Source: Mycobacterium florentinum
GTDB taxonomy: Bacteria; Actinomycetota; Actinomycetes; Mycobacteriales; Mycobacteriaceae
Assembly: GCF_010730355.1 (NCBI RefSeq)
Contig: NZ_AP022576.1
Span: forward strand, 3,162,001-3,226,000
DNA length: 64,000 bases
Direction: 5' to 3'
Of this stretch, positions 11,361 through 52,569 are shown piece after piece (position 1 is the stretch's first letter; the number at the start of each line of letters is the position of its first letter). The notes under the pieces are model-generated. The model had not been told where the DNA came from and made no database searches. It worked only from the letters and a program-made list of their open reading frames with translations. Both the position numbers and the translations under genes were made by a program.

Positions 11361-12758
11361 ATGGGCCGCAGCCACCGCATCACGGACTGGAATCCGGACG
11401 ACGCTGCGGCCTGGGACGCCGGCAACAACAAGATCGCCCGCCGCAATCTGCTGTGCACGATGGCGGGTGACCATGTCGCCTTCTCGATCTGGACGTTGTG
11501 GTCGGTGATGGTGCTGTTCATGCCGATGTCGGTCTACGGCTTCCGCGCCAGCGACAAGTTGCTCCTCGGTGCGGTTGCCACTCTGGTCGGCGGCGGCGCA
11601 CGCATCCCCTACACCCTGGGCATCGCCAAGTTCGGTGGCCGCAACTGGACCGTGTTCTCCGCGTTCGTGCTGCTGGTCCCGACCGCGGGCACCATCGTCC
11701 TGCTGGCCAATCCCGGGCTGCCGTTGTGGCCGTATGTGATCTGCGCCGCACTGACCGGACTGGGCGGCGGAAATTACGCGGCATCGCTGGCCAACGTCAA
11801 CGCGTTCTATCCGCAGCGGCTCAAGGGCACGGCGCTGGCGATCAACGCCGGCGTCGGCAATCTCGGTGTCGCGGTGATCCAATTGATCGGCCTGCTGGCG
11901 CTGGCCACCGCCGGCCACCAGGCGCCATACCGGGTGTGCGCGGTCTACCTGATTCTGCTCACTGCCGTCGGTATCGCCGCGGCGCTGTTCATGGACAACC
12001 TCGACCACGGCATCCAGCTCAACCACATGCGCTCGACCCTCTTCGACCGCGACACCTGGGTGATCTCGCTGCTCTACATCTGCACCTTCGGCTCCTGGAT
12101 CGGGTTCTCCTTCGCCTTCGGTCAGATCCTGGAGGTCAACTTCGCGGCCAATGGCGAAAGCGCCGCGCATGCGTCGCTGCACGCGGCTCAAATCGCCTTT
12201 GTCGGGCCGCTATTGGGCTCGCTGGCGCGGATCTACGGCGGTCGGCTGGCGGACCGCCGTAGCGGTAGCCGCGTCACCCTGGGCGTCCTGGTGGGCATGA
12301 TCGTGGGCGCAGGCCTGCTGGTGGGCATCAGCACGGTCGAGGACCGCAGCGGCGCTACGTCGTCCACCGCAATGGTCGGCTCGGTCATCGGATTCATCGT
12401 CTTGTTCGTGTTGTCGGGAATGGGCAACGGCTCGGTGTTCAAACTGATCCCGTCGGTCTTCGAGGCGCGGAGTCGCTCGCTGGATGCCAGCGAGGCGGAG
12501 CGCCGGCAGTGGTCGCGTGCCAAATCGGGATCGCTGATCGGCATCTGCTCGGCGGTCGGGGCGCTCGGCGGCGTCGGAATCAACTTGGCGCTGCGCGAGT
12601 CCTACCTGCGCAGCGGCACCGAGACATCGGCGTATTGGCTGTTCCTGGCCTCCTACGTCGTCGCGGCAATCCTGACGTGGAGGATGTATGTGCGTCGCCC
12701 GGAGTCGACGTTGGCCGCACCGGATTCGGTGCTCACACCGGAACCCGCTCGGGTGTGA
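11361..12758 (+). CDS. Nitrate/nitrite transporter, NarK family (second of tandem pair)
   Basis: Second NarK-type MFS transporter, 465 aa, clearly a paralog of the upstream gene: the two share nearly the same N-terminus (WNPDDAAAWDAGNNKIARRN), the GLGGGNYAASLANVNAFYP motif and the ERRQWSRAKSGSLIG segment near the C-terminus. The start is ATG 11361 with GGAAGG ten bases upstream. It probably moves nitrate in or nitrite out for assimilation by NirBD encoded downstream. The tandem arrangement suggests either a local duplication or that the narU-like gene, located elsewhere in H37Rv, sits here instead. It is followed by nnaR after a short gap. Confidence 0.85.
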   Translation: MGRSHRITDWNPDDAAAWDAGNNKIARRNLLCTMAGDHVAFSIWTLWSVMVLFMPMSVYGFRASDKLLLGAVATLVGGGARIPYTLGIAKFGGRNWTVFSAFVLLVPTAGTIVLLANPGLPLWPYVICAALTGLGGGNYAASLANVNAFYPQRLKGTALAINAGVGNLGVAVIQLIGLLALATAGHQAPYRVCAVYLILLTAVGIAAALFMDNLDHGIQLNHMRSTLFDRDTWVISLLYICTFGSWIGFSFAFGQILEVNFAANGESAAHASLHAAQIAFVGPLLGSLARIYGGRLADRRSGSRVTLGVLVGMIVGAGLLVGISTVEDRSGATSSTAMVGSVIGFIVLFVLSGMGNGSVFKLIPSVFEARSRSLDASEAERRQWSRAKSGSLIGICSAVGALGGVGINLALRESYLRSGTETSAYWLFLASYVVAAILTWRMYVRRPESTLAAPDSVLTPEPARV

Positions 12759-12835
12759 CAATCACCGCAACATGGGCAATGCTTAAGCAATCGCCAGGTA
12801 ACGGTGCCGAAACGTCACAGGCATACACAGGTCGT

Positions 12836-13981
12836 ATGGAGCAGCCCGCCTCACCACCGCTAACCGGATACCGGATAGCGGTCACCTCGGCGCGCCGCTC
12901 CGAGGAGCTGTGCGCACTGCTGAGCCGTCAGGGCGCCGAGGTCTCCAGCGCCGCCGCGATCAACATGATCGCGTTGCCCGAAGACGACGAACTGCAGAGC
13001 AATACCGAAGCCGTGATCGCCGACCCGCCCGACATCTTGGTCGCGCACACCGGGATCGGATTTCGCGGCTGGGTGGCCGCAGCCGAAGGTTGGGGCCTGT
13101 CGAACCAACTCATCGGGTCGTTGTCCAAGGCGCGGGTGCTGGCCCGCGGGCCCAAGGCGACCGGTGCGCTGCGCGCTGCCGGCTTGCACGAGGAGTGGTC
13201 ACCGAAATCTGAATCCTCCCAAGAGCTTCTCAAGTACTTGCTCGAATCGCCGTTGTCCGGGCTACGTATCGCGGTCCAACTGCACGGTGCCGCCGACGCT
13301 TGGGACCCGTTCCCGGAATTCATCGGCGGCTTGCGCGCCGCCGGCGCCAACGTGGTGCCCATCCGGGTGTACCGGTGGAAGTCGACTCCCTTGGGCGGCA
13401 ACTTCGACCAACTGGTCACCGGAATCGCGCGACGCCAGTTCGATGCGGTCAGCTTCACCTCGGCGCCCGCCGCGGCGGCGGTCCTGGAACGCAGCCGCGA
13501 CTTGAATATCGAGACCCAGGTGATCGAGGCGCTGCGCACCGACGTCCACGCGATGTGCGTCGGCCCGGTGACGGCACAGCCATTACACCGCAAGAGCATT
13601 CCGACATCGGCGCCCGAACGAATGCGGTTGGGCGCCTTGGCCCGTCACATCGCAGAGAAGCTTCCGCTACTCGGATCGTGCAACGTGACGGCCGCGGGGC
13701 ACGCGGTCGAGATCCGCGGAAACTGCGTGCTGGTCGACGGTTCGGTCCAGTCACTGTCCGGGTCCGGGATGGCGGTGCTGCGCGCGTTGGCGCAGCGTCC
13801 CGGCGACGTCGTCGCCCGTGGTGATTTGTTACGGGTACTGCCCGGCAACAGCAACGACCCGCACGCCGTCGACACCGCCGTGCTACGACTGCGAACTGCA
13901 TTGGGCGACAAGAATATTGTCGCAACAGTCGTCAAACGTGGTTACCGGCTCGCGATCGACGAACCGGCGGTGATGCTATGA
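12836..13981 (+). CDS. nnaR: NnaR-type regulator: HemD-like domain fused to OmpR-type winged helix
   Basis: Transcription regulator of nitrate/nitrite assimilation, 381 aa, same length as Rv0260c. The N-terminal two-thirds is a uroporphyrinogen-III-synthase-like (HemD) fold, starting LTGYRIAVTSARRSEELCALL. The last ~100 residues are an OmpR/PhoB winged helix (LSGSGMAVLRALAQRPGDVV, then HAVDTAVLRLRTALGD and VVKRGYRL). No receiver domain is present. The M. smegmatis protein NnaR, as I recall, works with GlnR to activate nirBD and transporter genes. ATG 12836 is chosen because it opens the HemD domain. It is translationally coupled (ATGA) to the chelatase gene downstream. An enzymatic HemD role is possible but less likely. 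Confidence 0.85.
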   Translation: MEQPASPPLTGYRIAVTSARRSEELCALLSRQGAEVSSAAAINMIALPEDDELQSNTEAVIADPPDILVAHTGIGFRGWVAAAEGWGLSNQLIGSLSKARVLARGPKATGALRAAGLHEEWSPKSESSQELLKYLLESPLSGLRIAVQLHGAADAWDPFPEFIGGLRAAGANVVPIRVYRWKSTPLGGNFDQLVTGIARRQFDAVSFTSAPAAAAVLERSRDLNIETQVIEALRTDVHAMCVGPVTAQPLHRKSIPTSAPERMRLGALARHIAEKLPLLGSCNVTAAGHAVEIRGNCVLVDGSVQSLSGSGMAVLRALAQRPGDVVARGDLLRVLPGNSNDPHAVDTAVLRLRTALGDKNIVATVVKRGYRLAIDEPAVML

Positions 13982-14715
13982 GCCTGATACTTGCCGCACA
14001 CGGCACCCGCCGCCCGGGCGGTGTCGCGATGATCGGCGATCTGGCGGAACAGGTGAGCAGGCAGCTCGGCCGCACCGTGCGGGTCGCCTTCGTCGACGTC
14101 CTGGGACCCACACCCAGCGAGGTGCTTTCCGCGACCGGCGGCCACCGGGCCGTCGTGGTGCCCGCGTTCCTGTCCCGCGGCTACCACGTCCGCGCGGATG
14201 TCCCCGCGCACGTCGAGGCCAGCGGGCATCCCAATGTCATCGTCACCCCGGCGCTGGGCCCGGGCGGAGAGATCGCCCGGATCGTCGCCGACCAGCTGAT
14301 GAAATCTGGTTGGCGCCCAGGTGATTCGGTGATCCTCGGGGCGGCGGGAACATCGGATCCCGTCGCGCTCTCGGACCTGCACACCACGGCGACGCTGTTG
14401 TCCGCGCTGACCGGCTCACGAGTTACCCTGGGATTTGCCGCCATTGGCGATCCGCAGATCACCGAGGCCGTCGAGATGGCGCGTGCCGGCGGTGCGCGCC
14501 GCGTCGCGATCGCCTCCTATCTGCTCGCCGAAGGCCTGTTTCAGGAGAGGCTCCGGAACTGCGGTGCCGATCTGGTCAGCCGGCCGCTGGGGACGCATCC
14601 GCGACTGGCGCGCCTGATCGCGAACCGATTCCGCAGGGCGGTGCCGGTGGCGACGCGGCATCCGGTGCGCCGTTACCGCCCGGGCGCGCCGACACACGCG
14701 ATGCTTGATCTTTGA
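13978..14715 (+). CDS. CbiX/SirB-family sirohydrochlorin chelatase
   Basis: Probable sirohydrochlorin ferrochelatase, 245 aa, ortholog of Rv0259c. It would insert iron into sirohydrochlorin to make sirohaem, the cofactor of NirB encoded nearby. The N-terminal motif ILAAHGTRRPGG carries the expected metal-site His. The half-domain repeat includes SRGYHVRADVPAHVEASGHP, with further conserved His residues, and VILGAAGTSDP. The ATG overlaps the nnaR stop by 4 nt (ATGA), so the two are co-translated. Context (regulator, transporters, sirohaem nitrite reductase) supports a sirohaem role over cobalamin. Metal specificity is inferred. Confidence 0.8.
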   Translation: MSLILAAHGTRRPGGVAMIGDLAEQVSRQLGRTVRVAFVDVLGPTPSEVLSATGGHRAVVVPAFLSRGYHVRADVPAHVEASGHPNVIVTPALGPGGEIARIVADQLMKSGWRPGDSVILGAAGTSDPVALSDLHTTATLLSALTGSRVTLGFAAIGDPQITEAVEMARAGGARRVAIASYLLAEGLFQERLRNCGADLVSRPLGTHPRLARLIANRFRRAVPVATRHPVRRYRPGAPTHAMLDL

Positions 14716-14739
14716 TCACGCTCGGGTGATCCTGGCACC

Positions 14740-15189
14740 ATGCCCAGTCGCGAAGAACCATCGCGTGGGCTCCTCGACCCGGTCGCGAAGATGCTGCGGT
14801 TGCCGTTCGGCACACCGGAATTCATCGACCGGATCATCACCGGAGGGGTCAACCAGGTCGGCCGCCGCACGCTCTACATGCTGATCACTACGTGGGATGC
14901 CGCCGGCGGTGGGCCGTTCGCGGCGAGCGCGGTCGCGTCCACCGGGATGGCCAAGACCGCCGAGGTGGTGCAAAGCATGTTCATCGGACCGGTTTTCGGC
15001 CCGGTGCTGAAAGTGCTTGGCGCCGACAAGGCCGCCGTGCGGGCGTCGTTGTGCGCCTCACAGTTGGTCGGCCTCGGCATCATGCGCTACGGAGTGCGCT
15101 CCGAGCCGTTGCACTCGATGTCGGTCGACGCGCTCGTCGACGCGATCGGCCCAACGATGCAACGGTACCTGGTCGGCGATATCGGCTAG
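14740..15189 (+). CDS. TetR C-terminal-domain-like protein without HTH (Rv0258c-like)
   Basis: Conserved mycobacterial protein of 149 aa, corresponding to Rv0258c. The second half (FIGPVFGPVLKVLGADKAA, then SQLVGLGIMRYGVRSEPLHS and IGPTMQRYLVG) looks like the C-terminal ligand-binding/dimerisation domain of certain TetR regulators, where a GL..RY....EPL pattern is typical. There is no helix-turn-helix ahead of it: residues 1-35 are not TetR-like. It may bind a ligand or dimerise with a true TetR protein, or simply be a diverged relic. It ends convergently with nirD, the two stop codons overlapping. Function unknown. Confidence 0.6.
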   Translation: MPSREEPSRGLLDPVAKMLRLPFGTPEFIDRIITGGVNQVGRRTLYMLITTWDAAGGGPFAASAVASTGMAKTAEVVQSMFIGPVFGPVLKVLGADKAAVRASLCASQLVGLGIMRYGVRSEPLHSMSVDALVDAIGPTMQRYLVGDIG

Positions 15190-41725: not shown

Positions 41726-41811
41726 CGTTTCCGGCGTTGGCTGGCCGCTTGCCGGCTGGTTGACTGAATACACGCAATGGTGTGACAGTCACCGTCCGAG
41801 GAGCTGTGGCC

Positions 41812-43254
41812 ATGGACTGGTTTGCTGCATCCGACTACTGGTTGGGCAGGTTCGTGCTCGAGCGCGGCGTGGCGGCCATCTACCTGATCGCGTTCGTCGC
41901 CGCCGCCCTGCAGTTCCGCGCACTGATCGGCGAACACGGAATCCTGCCGGTGCCACGCTTTTTGGCGCGTCAGTCGTGGTGGAGCTCGCCGAGCATCTTC
42001 CAGGTGCGCTACTCCGATCGGCTGTTCGCCGGTGTCTGCTGGTTCGGGGCGGCGCTGTCGGCCGCCGTCGTGGCCGGCGCTGCCGACCTGCTACCGCTTG
42101 GGGCCGCGACGTTGATGTGGCTGACGCTGTGGGTGCTCTACCTGTCGATCGTCAACGTCGGGCAAGCGTGGTATTCGTTCGGCTGGGAATCGCTGCTGCT
42201 GGAAAGCGGATTCCTGATGATCTTCCTCGGCAATGATCGCGTCGCGCCGCCGGTGCTGACGTTGTGGATGGCGCGGCTGCTGCTGTTTCGCGTCGAGTTC
42301 GGCGCCGGGCTGATCAAGATGCGCGGTGACGCGTGCTGGCGCGACCTGACCTGCCTGTACTACCACCACGAAACCCAGCCGATGCCGGGGCCGCTGAGCT
42401 GGTTCTTCCATCACCTGCCCAAGCCGCTGCATCGAATTGAGGTGGCGGGCAACCACTTCGCGCAGCTGGTGGTGCCGTTCGGGCTGTTCGCGCCCCAGCC
42501 AGTATCCAGCGTGGCGGCGGCGATCGTTGTGGTCACCCAGCTGTGGCTGGTGGCCTCCGGCAATTTCGCCTGGCTCAATTGGCTGACGATTGTGCTGGCG
42601 TTCAGCGCCATCGACGACTCCTCTGCGGCGCTGCTGGTGCCGATACCCGGGCACTCGCCGCCGGTGTCGCCGCTGTGGTTCGTCGGCATGGTGGTGGCGT
42701 GCGCGGGCGCGGTACTGTTCCTGACCTATTGGCCGGTGCGCAACATGTTGTCCCCGCGTCAGCGAATGAACATGTCGTTCAACCCGTTTCACTTGGTGAA
42801 TACCTACGGTGCATTCGGCAGCATCGGTCGTGTCCGCCGGGAGGTGGTGGTCGAGGGCACCGACGAGCCACGGCTCACCGCGCGGACGGTGTGGAAGGAA
42901 TACGAGTTCAAGGGCAAGCCCGGCGCCGTCGGACGGTTGCCCCGCCAGTGGGCGCCCTATCATCTGCGGCTTGACTGGCTGATGTGGTTCGCCGCGATCG
43001 CGCCGGGCTACGCCCAGCCATGGCTGAAGCCGTTCTTGCAACGGCTGCTGCGCAACGACCGCGCCACGCTACGGCTGTTGCGGCACAATCCTTTTCCGGA
43101 CTCGCCGCCGCGCTATGTGCGGGCGCAGCTCTACCAGTACCGCTTCACCACGCCGGCGGAGCTGCGGCGCGATCGGATGTGGTGGCATCGTGCGCTGGTC
43201 GGCCAATATCTTCCGCCGATGACGCTGACGACGGCGTCTCCCCCGGCCGGCTGA
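41812..43254 (+). CDS. Lipase maturation factor family membrane protein (Rv0235c-like)
   Basis: Polytopic membrane protein of the lipase-maturation-factor (LMF1-like) family, 480 aa, ortholog of Rv0235c. The family core is visible as GQAWYSFGWESLLLESGFL, then FRVEFGAGLIKMRGDACWRDLTCLYYHHETQPMPGP shortened across two lines of helices, and FNPFHLVNTYGAFGSIGRVR. ATG 41812 is preferred because GAGGAG is eight bases upstream; GTG 41806 and GTG 41782 are alternatives. The bacterial role is unknown; eukaryotic members help lipases fold in the ER. It follows aftD by 86 bp. Confidence 0.83.
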   Translation: MDWFAASDYWLGRFVLERGVAAIYLIAFVAAALQFRALIGEHGILPVPRFLARQSWWSSPSIFQVRYSDRLFAGVCWFGAALSAAVVAGAADLLPLGAATLMWLTLWVLYLSIVNVGQAWYSFGWESLLLESGFLMIFLGNDRVAPPVLTLWMARLLLFRVEFGAGLIKMRGDACWRDLTCLYYHHETQPMPGPLSWFFHHLPKPLHRIEVAGNHFAQLVVPFGLFAPQPVSSVAAAIVVVTQLWLVASGNFAWLNWLTIVLAFSAIDDSSAALLVPIPGHSPPVSPLWFVGMVVACAGAVLFLTYWPVRNMLSPRQRMNMSFNPFHLVNTYGAFGSIGRVRREVVVEGTDEPRLTARTVWKEYEFKGKPGAVGRLPRQWAPYHLRLDWLMWFAAIAPGYAQPWLKPFLQRLLRNDRATLRLLRHNPFPDSPPRYVRAQLYQYRFTTPAELRRDRMWWHRALVGQYLPPMTLTTASPPAG

Positions 43255-43731: not shown

Positions 43732-43877
43732 GTCTGCGAGGTTAGAACGATTGAGCTTTCCGCCGTGGCTGGTGCGTTTGGCGTATCAACTCGTGCGTGT
43801 TCTGTCCAGCGCCTGGCCGTTATTCGCGGTCTGGACGCACCATCGAGTCATCACACTCGGTTGGGGAGGTCGGTCAG

Positions 43878-44822
43878 ATGACACGCACACATTCGGGTTC
43901 ACTGCTCGCGGGCGGACTGAACTGGGATAGTTTGCCGCTGAGGCTATTCGCGGGGGGTAACACCAAGTTCTGGGACCCCGCCGATATCGACTTCTCCCGC
44001 GACCGCGCGGACTGGGAAAGCCTGACCGATGAGGAACGCCGCCTCGCAATGCAATTGTGCGTGCAATTCGTTGCCGGGGAGGAGGCGGTGACTGAGGACA
44101 TTCAGCCGTTCATGGCGGCCATGCGGGCCGAGGGCCGGCTGGGTGACGAGATGTATCTGACGCAGTTCGCTTTCGAGGAGGCCAAGCACACCCAGGTGTT
44201 CCGCATGTGGCTCGACGCCGTCGGTGAGACCGGCGATCTGCAGGCCTACCTCGAGCCGCTGCCCGCGTACCGGCAGATCTTTTACGAGGAGCTGCCAAAC
44301 TGCCTCAACGCCTTGACAATCGACCCGTCACCCGTCGCGCAGATCCGGGCATCGGTGACCTATAACCACGTGGTCGAGGGCATGATGGCGCTGACCGGCT
44401 ACCACTCGTGGCACAAGATCTGCGCCGGGCGCAACATTCTGCCCGGCATGCGGGAGTTGGTCCGGCGCATCGGCGACGACGAGCGACGGCACATGGCGTG
44501 GGGCACCTTCACCTGCCGGCGCCACGTCGCCGCCGACGACACCAACTGGGCCGTGTTCGAGGCACGGATGAACGAGCTCATCCCGCTGGTCATGCAAACG
44601 ACCGAACAGGCTTATGCCACGTTCAGCGATCCCATCCCGTTCGGCCTGGACCCAGACGAGTCGCGCCAGTACGCCTCCGACAGGGGTATGCGCCGGTTCG
44701 GCACCATCGCCAGTGCCCGCGGCCGACCGCTCGGTGAGATCGACGTCGACTATTCGCCGCTGCAGCTGGAAGACAGCTTCGCCAACGAGGACGAAAAGGC
44801 CTTGGCGGCCTCGGCACAGTGA
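43878..44822 (+). CDS. R2-like ligand-binding oxidase, second copy
   Basis: R2lox protein of the ferritin/RNR-R2 superfamily, 314 aa, a paralog of the gene at 51634-52569. The metal ligands of M. tuberculosis R2lox are all present: E68, E101, H104, E167, E202, H205 in [19 protein letters not shown] and DDERRH. The Val-Tyr pair that forms the ether cross-link (V71, Y162) is kept as well. It should therefore assemble a Mn/Fe cofactor and oxidise a bound lipid-like ligand. ATG 43878 follows GGGAGG. Next comes, one base after the stop, a membrane-tethered HNH gene. Substrate unknown; not a ribonucleotide reductase subunit despite the frequent nrdB label. Confidence 0.88.
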
Positions 44823-44823
44823 C

Positions 44824-45714
44824 ATGAAAGCACTCACGATCGCGGCAGCAGCCGCCATAGCGCTCGCACCCGTCGCGGTGGTAGCAACCACACCCGTTGT
44901 GGCACAGGCGGCTCCGTTTGTCGGCGCTGCGCAACATCGCATTCCGACGAGGCCCGCTCCGCCGGAGCCGACCGACGACCGTGACACCGGCGGGGACCCG
45001 ACAGGTCGTTTCACCAACTCCTCGGGGCCCGAGCGGGCCGCTGACGACGAGCCGAGCCCACCCTGGCGGCACCTGGCGCTGCACTACGCGGTGTTGATGA
45101 CAGTGGTGGGCCTTGCCGCCTGGGCTATCGGATCGTCTTCACGTCGCGCCAGGGGTACACCTGCGATCCCGGCCCGGCCGGAACCGCGCCGGGTCGGCCG
45201 CGCCGCGCCGGCCGTCAAATCCGCGCGCACATTTGCCACGATTGATCCGCCAGACTCAGAGGCAAAGCAACGGGCGCTAGTCGAGGCGGCCCATAGATGC
45301 GCCGTCCCCACCTGCCGGCATCCAACGACCGAGATAGCTCACATCGTGTCCACGTCGCAGAGCCGCGACGACTCGTTCCAAAACCTCATCGCGTTATGCC
45401 CGGGCTGCCAAGAGAAGGAAATCGATCCGCAGTCGATCCGCAGGTACAAGCGCAATCTCGGGATCTTGAACAGTCGCTACTCTGCTTTCGAGCGCCGGTT
45501 GTTCGACCAGATTGCCGAGACCGGCCGGAGATCCTTCGTGGTCCAGGCGGGTTTGGAGATCCCGCTCCTGCACGCAGTCGGTGATGGGTTTTTGAAGCGA
45601 ATCGAACCATCGCCGGTACCGACCCAACGCGATGAACCCACCCATTACCGATATGAGGTCGCCGATGCCGGGCTGGAATTCGTTGGCCGATACGTCCGGG
45701 GTGAAGACATTTGA
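44824..45714 (+). CDS. Membrane-tethered HNH-domain protein
   Basis: 296-aa protein with an unusual layout. Residues 1-30 are a signal-like segment (AAAAAIALAPVAVV, ending AQAA), and 31-82 are polar and Pro-rich. A membrane helix spans about 84-104 (LALHYAVLMTVVGLAAWAIG) and is followed by Arg-rich residues, so the C-terminus should be cytoplasmic. An HNH/zinc-finger nuclease-like domain at 155-215 has C159 and C164 (CAVPTC), H173 (EIAHIVS), N187 (NLIAL) and C192/C195 (CPGC). The remaining ~100 residues are unassigned. ATG 44824 is one base after the R2lox-2 stop, so the two are an operon. Nuclease activity is inferred from the domain only. Confidence 0.7.
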   Translation: MKALTIAAAAAIALAPVAVVATTPVVAQAAPFVGAAQHRIPTRPAPPEPTDDRDTGGDPTGRFTNSSGPERAADDEPSPPWRHLALHYAVLMTVVGLAAWAIGSSSRRARGTPAIPARPEPRRVGRAAPAVKSARTFATIDPPDSEAKQRALVEAAHRCAVPTCRHPTTEIAHIVSTSQSRDDSFQNLIALCPGCQEKEIDPQSIRRYKRNLGILNSRYSAFERRLFDQIAETGRRSFVVQAGLEIPLLHAVGDGFLKRIEPSPVPTQRDEPTHYRYEVADAGLEFVGRYVRGEDI

Positions 45715-51633: not shown

Positions 51634-52569
51634 TCAGACGGTCGCCAGGGCCCGCTCGTCCTCCTCGGCGAAGGTGTCCTCGAGCTGCAGCGGTGAGTAG
51701 TCGAGGTCGATCTCGCCGAGCGGGCGGCCCCGGGCGCTGGAGATGGTGCCGAACCGGCGCATGCCCTTGTCGGAGGCGTACTGCATGAATTCGTCCACCG
51801 ACAGGCCGAAGGGCATCGGGTCGTACAGCGCGAAGCCCTCTTCGATCAGGCGCAGCCCGAGCGGCATCAGCTCGTTCATCCGCGTCTCGAAGACGCCCCA
51901 GTTGGCGTCGTCGGCGGCGACGTGGCGCCGGCAGGTGAACGTGCCCCACGCCATGTGGCGTCGCTCGTCGTCGCCGATGCGCCGGACCAGCTCCTGCATG
52001 CCCGGCAGGATGCCGCGCTCCACGCAGATCTTGTGCCAGCCGAAGTAGCCGGTCAGCGCCAGCATGCCCTCGACCATGTGGTTGTAGGTGACCGACGCCC
52101 GGACCTGGGCGGCCGGCGACGGATCGACCGACAAGGCGCTCAGACAGTCCGGCAGCTCCTCGTAGAAGATCGTCCGGTAGGTCGGGACGTCCTCGAGGAA
52201 GTTGTGCAGGTCCTCGGTGATGCCGACGGCGTCGAGCCACATGCGGAACACCTGGACGTGCTTGGCCTCCTCGAAGGCGAACTGGGTCAGATACATCTCG
52301 TCGCCGAGCCGGCCCTCGGCCCGCATCGCGGCCATGAACGGCTGGATGTCCTGGGTCACCGATTCCTCGCCCGCGATGAACTCGGCGCACAGCCGGGTCG
52401 CGTAGCTGCGTTCGTCGTCGGTCAGGCGTTCCCAGTCCTCGCGGTCGCGGGAGAAGTCGATGTCGGCCGGATTCCAGAATTTTGCATTACCGCCCGCAAA
52501 GAGCTTGAGCGGCAAGCTATCCCAGTTGAGACCGCCCTCGGCCATTGAGGCAATTCGGGTGCGTTTCAT
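51634..52569 (-). CDS. nrdB: R2-like ligand-binding oxidase R2lox (annotated nrdB in M. tuberculosis)
   Basis: Mn/Fe R2lox protein, 311 aa, the positional ortholog of Rv0233. It has the metal ligands E68, E101, H104, E167, E202, H205 and the cross-link pair V71/Y162, in [24 protein letters not shown] and DDERRHMAW. It likely oxidises a bound fatty-acid-like ligand rather than reducing ribonucleotides. The start overlaps the stop of the upstream TetR gene by 4 nt, so the two are co-translated and probably autoregulated. A close paralog lies at 43878-44822 in opposite orientation. Confidence 0.92.

Follow-up and report, generated by a model that had tools for sequence, protein, structure and literature searches.

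A second R2-like ligand-binding oxidase gene of Mycobacterium florentinum is closely followed by a gene for a membrane-anchored, probably non-cleaving HNH-fold/winged-helix protein

The window analysed here is the whole stretch of 64,000 nucleotides taken from Mycobacterium florentinum (contig NZ_AP022576.1, positions 3,162,001 to 3,226,000), whose genome of 6.22 Mb is assembled in one contig. It carries two genes encoding R2-like ligand-binding oxidases (R2lox), one of which (R2lox-2) is directly followed by a gene encoding a protein with an HNH fold, hereafter the partner (Table 1). The first-pass annotation had described this second R2lox as complete, and the analysis agrees: R2lox-2 belongs to the family by the NF006201 profile (616.7 bits for a cut-off of 346), its best solved relative is 3ee4, and the six metal ligands and the V71/Y162 pair are all present (E68, V71, E101, H104, Y162, E167, E202 and H205). 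For these positions, we assume the metal-ligand and cross-link roles of M. tuberculosis R2lox. The spacing of one base between the two genes is also as first described. The promoter of the pair likely lies in the intergenic stretch between R2lox-2 and a divergently oriented hotdog thioesterase gene. Pfam assigned six neighbouring genes of the window to metabolic or membrane families (LMF, thioesterase, DoxX, 2-hydroxyacid dehydrogenase, TPP enzyme and aldehyde dehydrogenase). The names aftD, gabD and FDH are working labels of neighbour genes, FDH being the 2-hydroxyacid dehydrogenase by Pfam. The lipase maturation factor homologue (Pfam LMF1; 41782-43254) lies upstream of the hotdog gene beside the pair.

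Table 1. Coordinates of the features at the R2lox-2 locus (positions in the window)
Feature	Position	Strand	Description and basis
Intergenic stretch, divergent hotdog thioesterase gene/R2lox-2	43732..43877	+	77% mean column identity, 7 genomes
R2lox-2	43878..44822	+	Complete R2-like ligand-binding oxidase, 314 aa; profile match, residues, solved relative
Junction	44820..44826	+	R2lox-2 stop TGA (44820-44822), one base, partner ATG at 44824; sequence
Partner	44824..45714 including stop (coding 44824-45711)	+	Membrane-anchored HNH-fold/winged-helix protein, 296 aa
Signal segment	44824..44913	+	Residues 1-30, hydrophobic, ends VAQAA
Transmembrane helix	45073..45129	+	Residues 84-102; hydrophobic, acidic residues before, basic after
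HNH-fold domain	45256..45471	+	Residues 145-216, with C159, C164, H173, N187, C192, C195
Gln196, where the third HNH histidine is expected	45409..45411	+	Alignment; absent from the first-pass annotation
MarR-like winged-helix domain	45472..45711	+	Residues 217-296; predicted
R2lox-1	51634..52569	-	Other R2lox of the window, context outside the pair; adjoins an aldehyde dehydrogenase gene (gabD)

The signal segment, the membrane helix and the C-terminal HNH-like domain that had been read in the partner, with the six residues named for this domain, were all found again. Residues V26 to A30, which close the signal segment, are invariant in the six membrane-anchored forms identified in this work, and the segment may be cleaved. 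The C-terminal side of the transmembrane helix is predicted to be cytosolic. An HNH (beta-beta-alpha-metal) fold is predicted for the domain that follows, and the Pfam HNH profile matches it with 22.1 bits, i.e. barely above its cut-off of 21.4. The four cysteines of this domain may form a structural zinc site. A separate domain, predicted to be winged-helix-like and not included in the first-pass annotation, makes up the last 80 residues.

We then searched for the pair in 396 Mycobacterium genomes, including that of the window, drawn evenly from a larger group and with one carrier genome per species. Mycobacterium is taken here in the wide sense (Mycobacterium, Mycolicibacterium and Mycolicibacillus). 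The P0001 search (E 1e-10) gave matches in 11 genomes, and more distant copies may have escaped it as 6 of about 20-40 first-look candidates were scored per genome. Six of these matches are membrane forms (G000, G031, G110, G132, G217 and G257) and five are shorter relatives without the N-terminal part, four of which were read (171-188 aa). Of the six genomes with a membrane form, five (all different species) have a second R2lox directly upstream of the partner, with a gap of one base in the window, an ATGA overlap in G031, G110 and G132, and a gap of four bases in G217. The pair is therefore not confined to one strain or species, as the first-pass annotation had left to be checked, and with dN/dS below 1 it is not a strain-specific accident. 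Nor is the partner a general companion of R2lox, which was found in 275 of the 396 genomes. An order-wide search of 249 genomes (E 1e-20) gave a match in one genome, that of the window.

R2lox-2 orthologues with at least 84% identity were found in seven genomes (G031, G110, G132, G164, G076, G250 and G217), eight with the window; this search covered 28 genomes, namely the 27 with at least two R2lox genes and G257. G164, G250 and G076 have R2lox-2 at this site too but lack the partner, the FDH gene coming directly after R2lox-2. Both R2lox genes of G076, R2lox-2 copy included, contain in-frame stops (L148:5899-6819, 12179-13114), which may mean that R2lox is being lost from this species. Conversely, G257 possesses the partner and a single R2lox, which is the gabD-side copy and lies on another contig of an assembly that is 97% complete. 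In the same genome, a short in-frame stretch before the membrane form (L033:517-1593) resembles by eye the glycine loop of protein kinases. Two other arrangements were observed: four R2lox genes in G367, two of them in tandem and adjoining gabD (L051:1501-3513), and a hotdog thioesterase gene present twice in G132, flanking the R2lox-2 pair (L031:11527-11991, 14572-15033).

In the R2lox tree, the R2lox-2 copies group in a single clade (support 100), and the R2lox-1 copies of these genomes fall apart from it (100). A recent duplication of R2lox-1 within the genome is an unsupported origin for R2lox-2, which groups with the R2lox of G030 (84 nucleotide, 91 protein) and not with R2lox-1. Within the R2lox-2 clade, the carrier G217 is the first branch (99 nucleotide, 94 protein); the placement of G164 and G250 inside the rooted clade is weakly supported (52-83). 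In the unrooted tree of R2lox-2 alone, G164 and G250 come together at 0.74, so the carriers could be one group. The trees of neighbour genes do not unite the carriers: G164 and G076, both without the partner, are sister to the carriers G000, G110 and G132 (joint group 92), with G031, G217 and G250 outside (support 22 to 91). The protein version of this tree was made without the gabD of six genomes, in which a stop lies within the aligned stretch. The shortest reading is a single gain of the partner at the base of the R2lox-2 clade followed by later loss; a repeated or late gain is possible.

Both genes are under constraint, with a dN/dS of 0.11-0.19 for R2lox-2, over 21 pairs from 7 genomes, and of 0.29-0.66 for the partner, over 15 pairs from 6 genomes. 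Per segment (mean dN/mean finite dS), the partner shows its lowest ratios in the winged helix (0.23) and the HNH domain (0.33), followed by the signal segment (about 0.41), the linkers (0.7 and 0.96) and the 23-codon membrane segment (0.8). Because the arrangement recurs in five species with tight spacing, and because the pairwise dN/dS of both genes is below 1, it goes beyond chance.

This does not by itself imply a functional link, since R2lox-2 and the partner each occur without the other, which makes such a link only plausible. The partner might be a mobile gene that inserted downstream of R2lox-2 and relies on the promoter and translation of the latter, the two proteins being functionally unrelated. 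The three genomes that keep R2lox-2 alone and the higher dN/dS of the partner are consistent with this, as is the membrane form of G257, which has a phage-type integrase gene and a gene matching rve below the threshold at no more than about 4 kb. The family to which the partner is related points the same way. Scanning genome contigs with alignment A2, we kept the best 80 of 171 relatives, which are scattered across many phyla (at position 196, one of the two scan patterns accepted no residue other than His or Gln, which narrows the range of other residues visible there). In the flanks of these best 80 of 171 relatives (up to 8 kb), R2lox was found only at L066, i.e. G217 itself, and no usable recurrent neighbour of the soluble family was found in the fetched loci. 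On the other side, the spacing is tight in all five carriers despite changed downstream genes, and the pairing may date back to the origin of the R2lox-2 clade. We keep the mobile-gene reading as a serious competitor, which we nevertheless think somewhat improbable.

The ten closest soluble relatives (L068-L077; Pseudomonas, Pelomonas and others) share 43-50% identity with the partner. They have the same order of domains, HNH and then the C-terminal domain, and we found no family name for them. The twelve proteins L068-L079 have short N-termini with no signal segment by eye, whereas the partner has one. The two largest clusters of neighbours (19 and 12 loci) were discarded, their examples being reading frames on the opposite strand of the HNH gene; the clusters of 4-5 loci come mainly from Streptomyces and look phage-like (by eye only). 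In two mycobacteria, a soluble HNH-winged-helix gene (L036:8809-9930, minus strand; L038:7282-8406, plus strand) directly follows a gene of the LOG/lysine-decarboxylase family (assigned by Pfam for L036), and an L,D-transpeptidase-like gene (by eye) lies downstream of it.

We next compared the catalytic site of the partner with that of these relatives. The six residues named for the HNH domain, including the first His (H173) and the Asn (N187), are present in all 59 proteins of alignment A3. Position 196, where the last His of the motif is expected, is His in 56 of these proteins and Gln in the other three, which are membrane forms. CxxCQ and a shortened loop characterise the six membrane forms without exception, and H173, N187, Q196 and the four cysteines are invariant among them. 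The aligned soluble relatives all have CxxCH (56/56), and 38 of them, among proteins L068-L145, combine this TagI-like His with an Asp four residues further on, the other 18 having another residue there. Four residues separate C195 from the following Ile-Asp in the three membrane forms of A3, versus 8-10 in 54 of the 56 soluble proteins (17 in one, one unparsed); the loop after Gln196 is therefore at least four residues shorter than in the measurable soluble relatives. According to the study on TagI, the active-site metal of this nuclease is bound by its last His (H254) and apparently also by D258, both of which are required for activity (PMC6212794). Nuclease activity of the partner is unlikely, as neither the third His nor the Asp at this distance is found in the membrane forms.

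The first-pass annotation had suggested a membrane-bound nuclease-like protein coupled to R2lox in a stress, damage or defence response. For the partner to be an active membrane-tethered nuclease, Gln196 or another side chain would have to serve as metal ligand, while R2lox-2 would sense damage or lipid oxidation. The HNH fold and its invariant residues are kept, and the invariance of Q196 could signal a new ligand. In addition, PADLOC matched the HNH part of a soluble relative, one of four soluble/G257 relatives, to the candidate family PDC-M68A (5e-6). Against this stand the third His, the ligand that TagI requires (PMC6212794), replaced by Gln in all six membrane forms, and the shortened loop, as well as the weak PADLOC matches of the window's own protein (best E 0.0046) and the absence of known defence genes among its six Pfam-scanned neighbours. 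Neither the nuclease nor the defence part of the first suggestion is upheld, and we judge an active nuclease improbable. Transport as phage or plasmid cargo can be dismissed: there was no match in 50,697 phage records, one partial match (28% of the query, Streptomyces) in 72,556 plasmid records, and none of 123 pattern matches in viral contigs was confirmed.

The reading to which we give about even credence is that of a membrane-tethered and largely non-cleaving derivative of the HNH-winged-helix proteins, which would bind DNA (or protein) and be made with R2lox-2 in one species group. The partner would derive from a widespread soluble protein by gain of a membrane anchor. Its cytosolic half would retain the HNH fold, the four cysteines and the MarR-like winged helix, while its catalytic metal site is degraded: the third His is changed to Gln, and the loop in which most soluble relatives have an additional acidic ligand is shortened. 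Constrained cytosolic domains and the loss of the third His favour a binding role at the membrane, where the partner most likely cuts DNA poorly or not at all. The tight spacing implies joint expression: the two genes are probably co-transcribed and translationally coupled, so that both proteins would be produced at the same time and share one compartment. As the simplest assumption, the tether may keep R2lox-2, or a regulation dependent on it, at the membrane. Overall, the pair is probably an operon of a few species encoding R2lox-2 and an unusual, non-cleaving, membrane-anchored HNH-winged-helix protein.

To our knowledge, no protein partner or signalling role of an R2lox is known so far. 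As the first-pass annotation had supposed, no partner of this kind appears to be described: our literature search found no paper with both "ligand-binding oxidase" and "HNH". A bolder version, which we regard as quite a long shot, is a membrane-bound regulator in which the lipid chemistry of R2lox-2 controls DNA binding by the MarR-like domain of a formerly restriction-type protein stripped of cleavage. If true, an R2lox would for the first time have a protein partner and a role in signalling. In any case, five species keep a gene at coupling distance from R2lox of one lineage, which gives a testable handle on the role of R2lox, the other R2lox genes having no such partner. The membrane-anchored form, without the third His and with constrained cytosolic domains, also suggests a non-nuclease use of the HNH-winged-helix fold.

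Compared with Rv0233, which we take to be the R2-like ligand-binding oxidase of M. tuberculosis (PDB 3ee4, 4ac8), R2lox-2 is alike over the full length and shares the metal-ligand and cross-link residues. It differs from it by its clade, which stands apart from the gabD-side copies (support 100), and by the partner that follows in five genomes. In the literature, the physiological role of R2lox was given as unknown in a 2014 review (PMC4118035), alkane hydroxylation is proposed for a Geobacillus homologue (PMC10867098) and variants of Rv0233 are treated (PMC10916221).

The partner shares an HNH fold with cysteines with TagI, the McrA-type nucleases and the HNH domain of CBASS Cap5; unlike these, it lacks the third His and the Asp four residues after it. 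In CBASS Cap5, a SAVED domain follows the HNH domain. In the partner, only 80 residues follow it; these match winged helices, and the PADLOC SAVED_HNH match (E 0.014) covers residues 177-243 only. With TagI, the partner also shares the Ala before the first His (PMC6212794). The wH-HNH enzymes, described in a 2024 study as modification-dependent (type IV) restriction enzymes with the winged helix first (PMC11037411), likewise combine a winged helix and an HNH domain in one chain. Relative to that description, the partner has the reverse order, with the HNH domain preceding the winged helix, and it is membrane-anchored and has lost the third His. The soluble proteins with an HNH domain and then a winged helix are candidate modification-dependent restriction enzymes whose layout would be an undescribed one.
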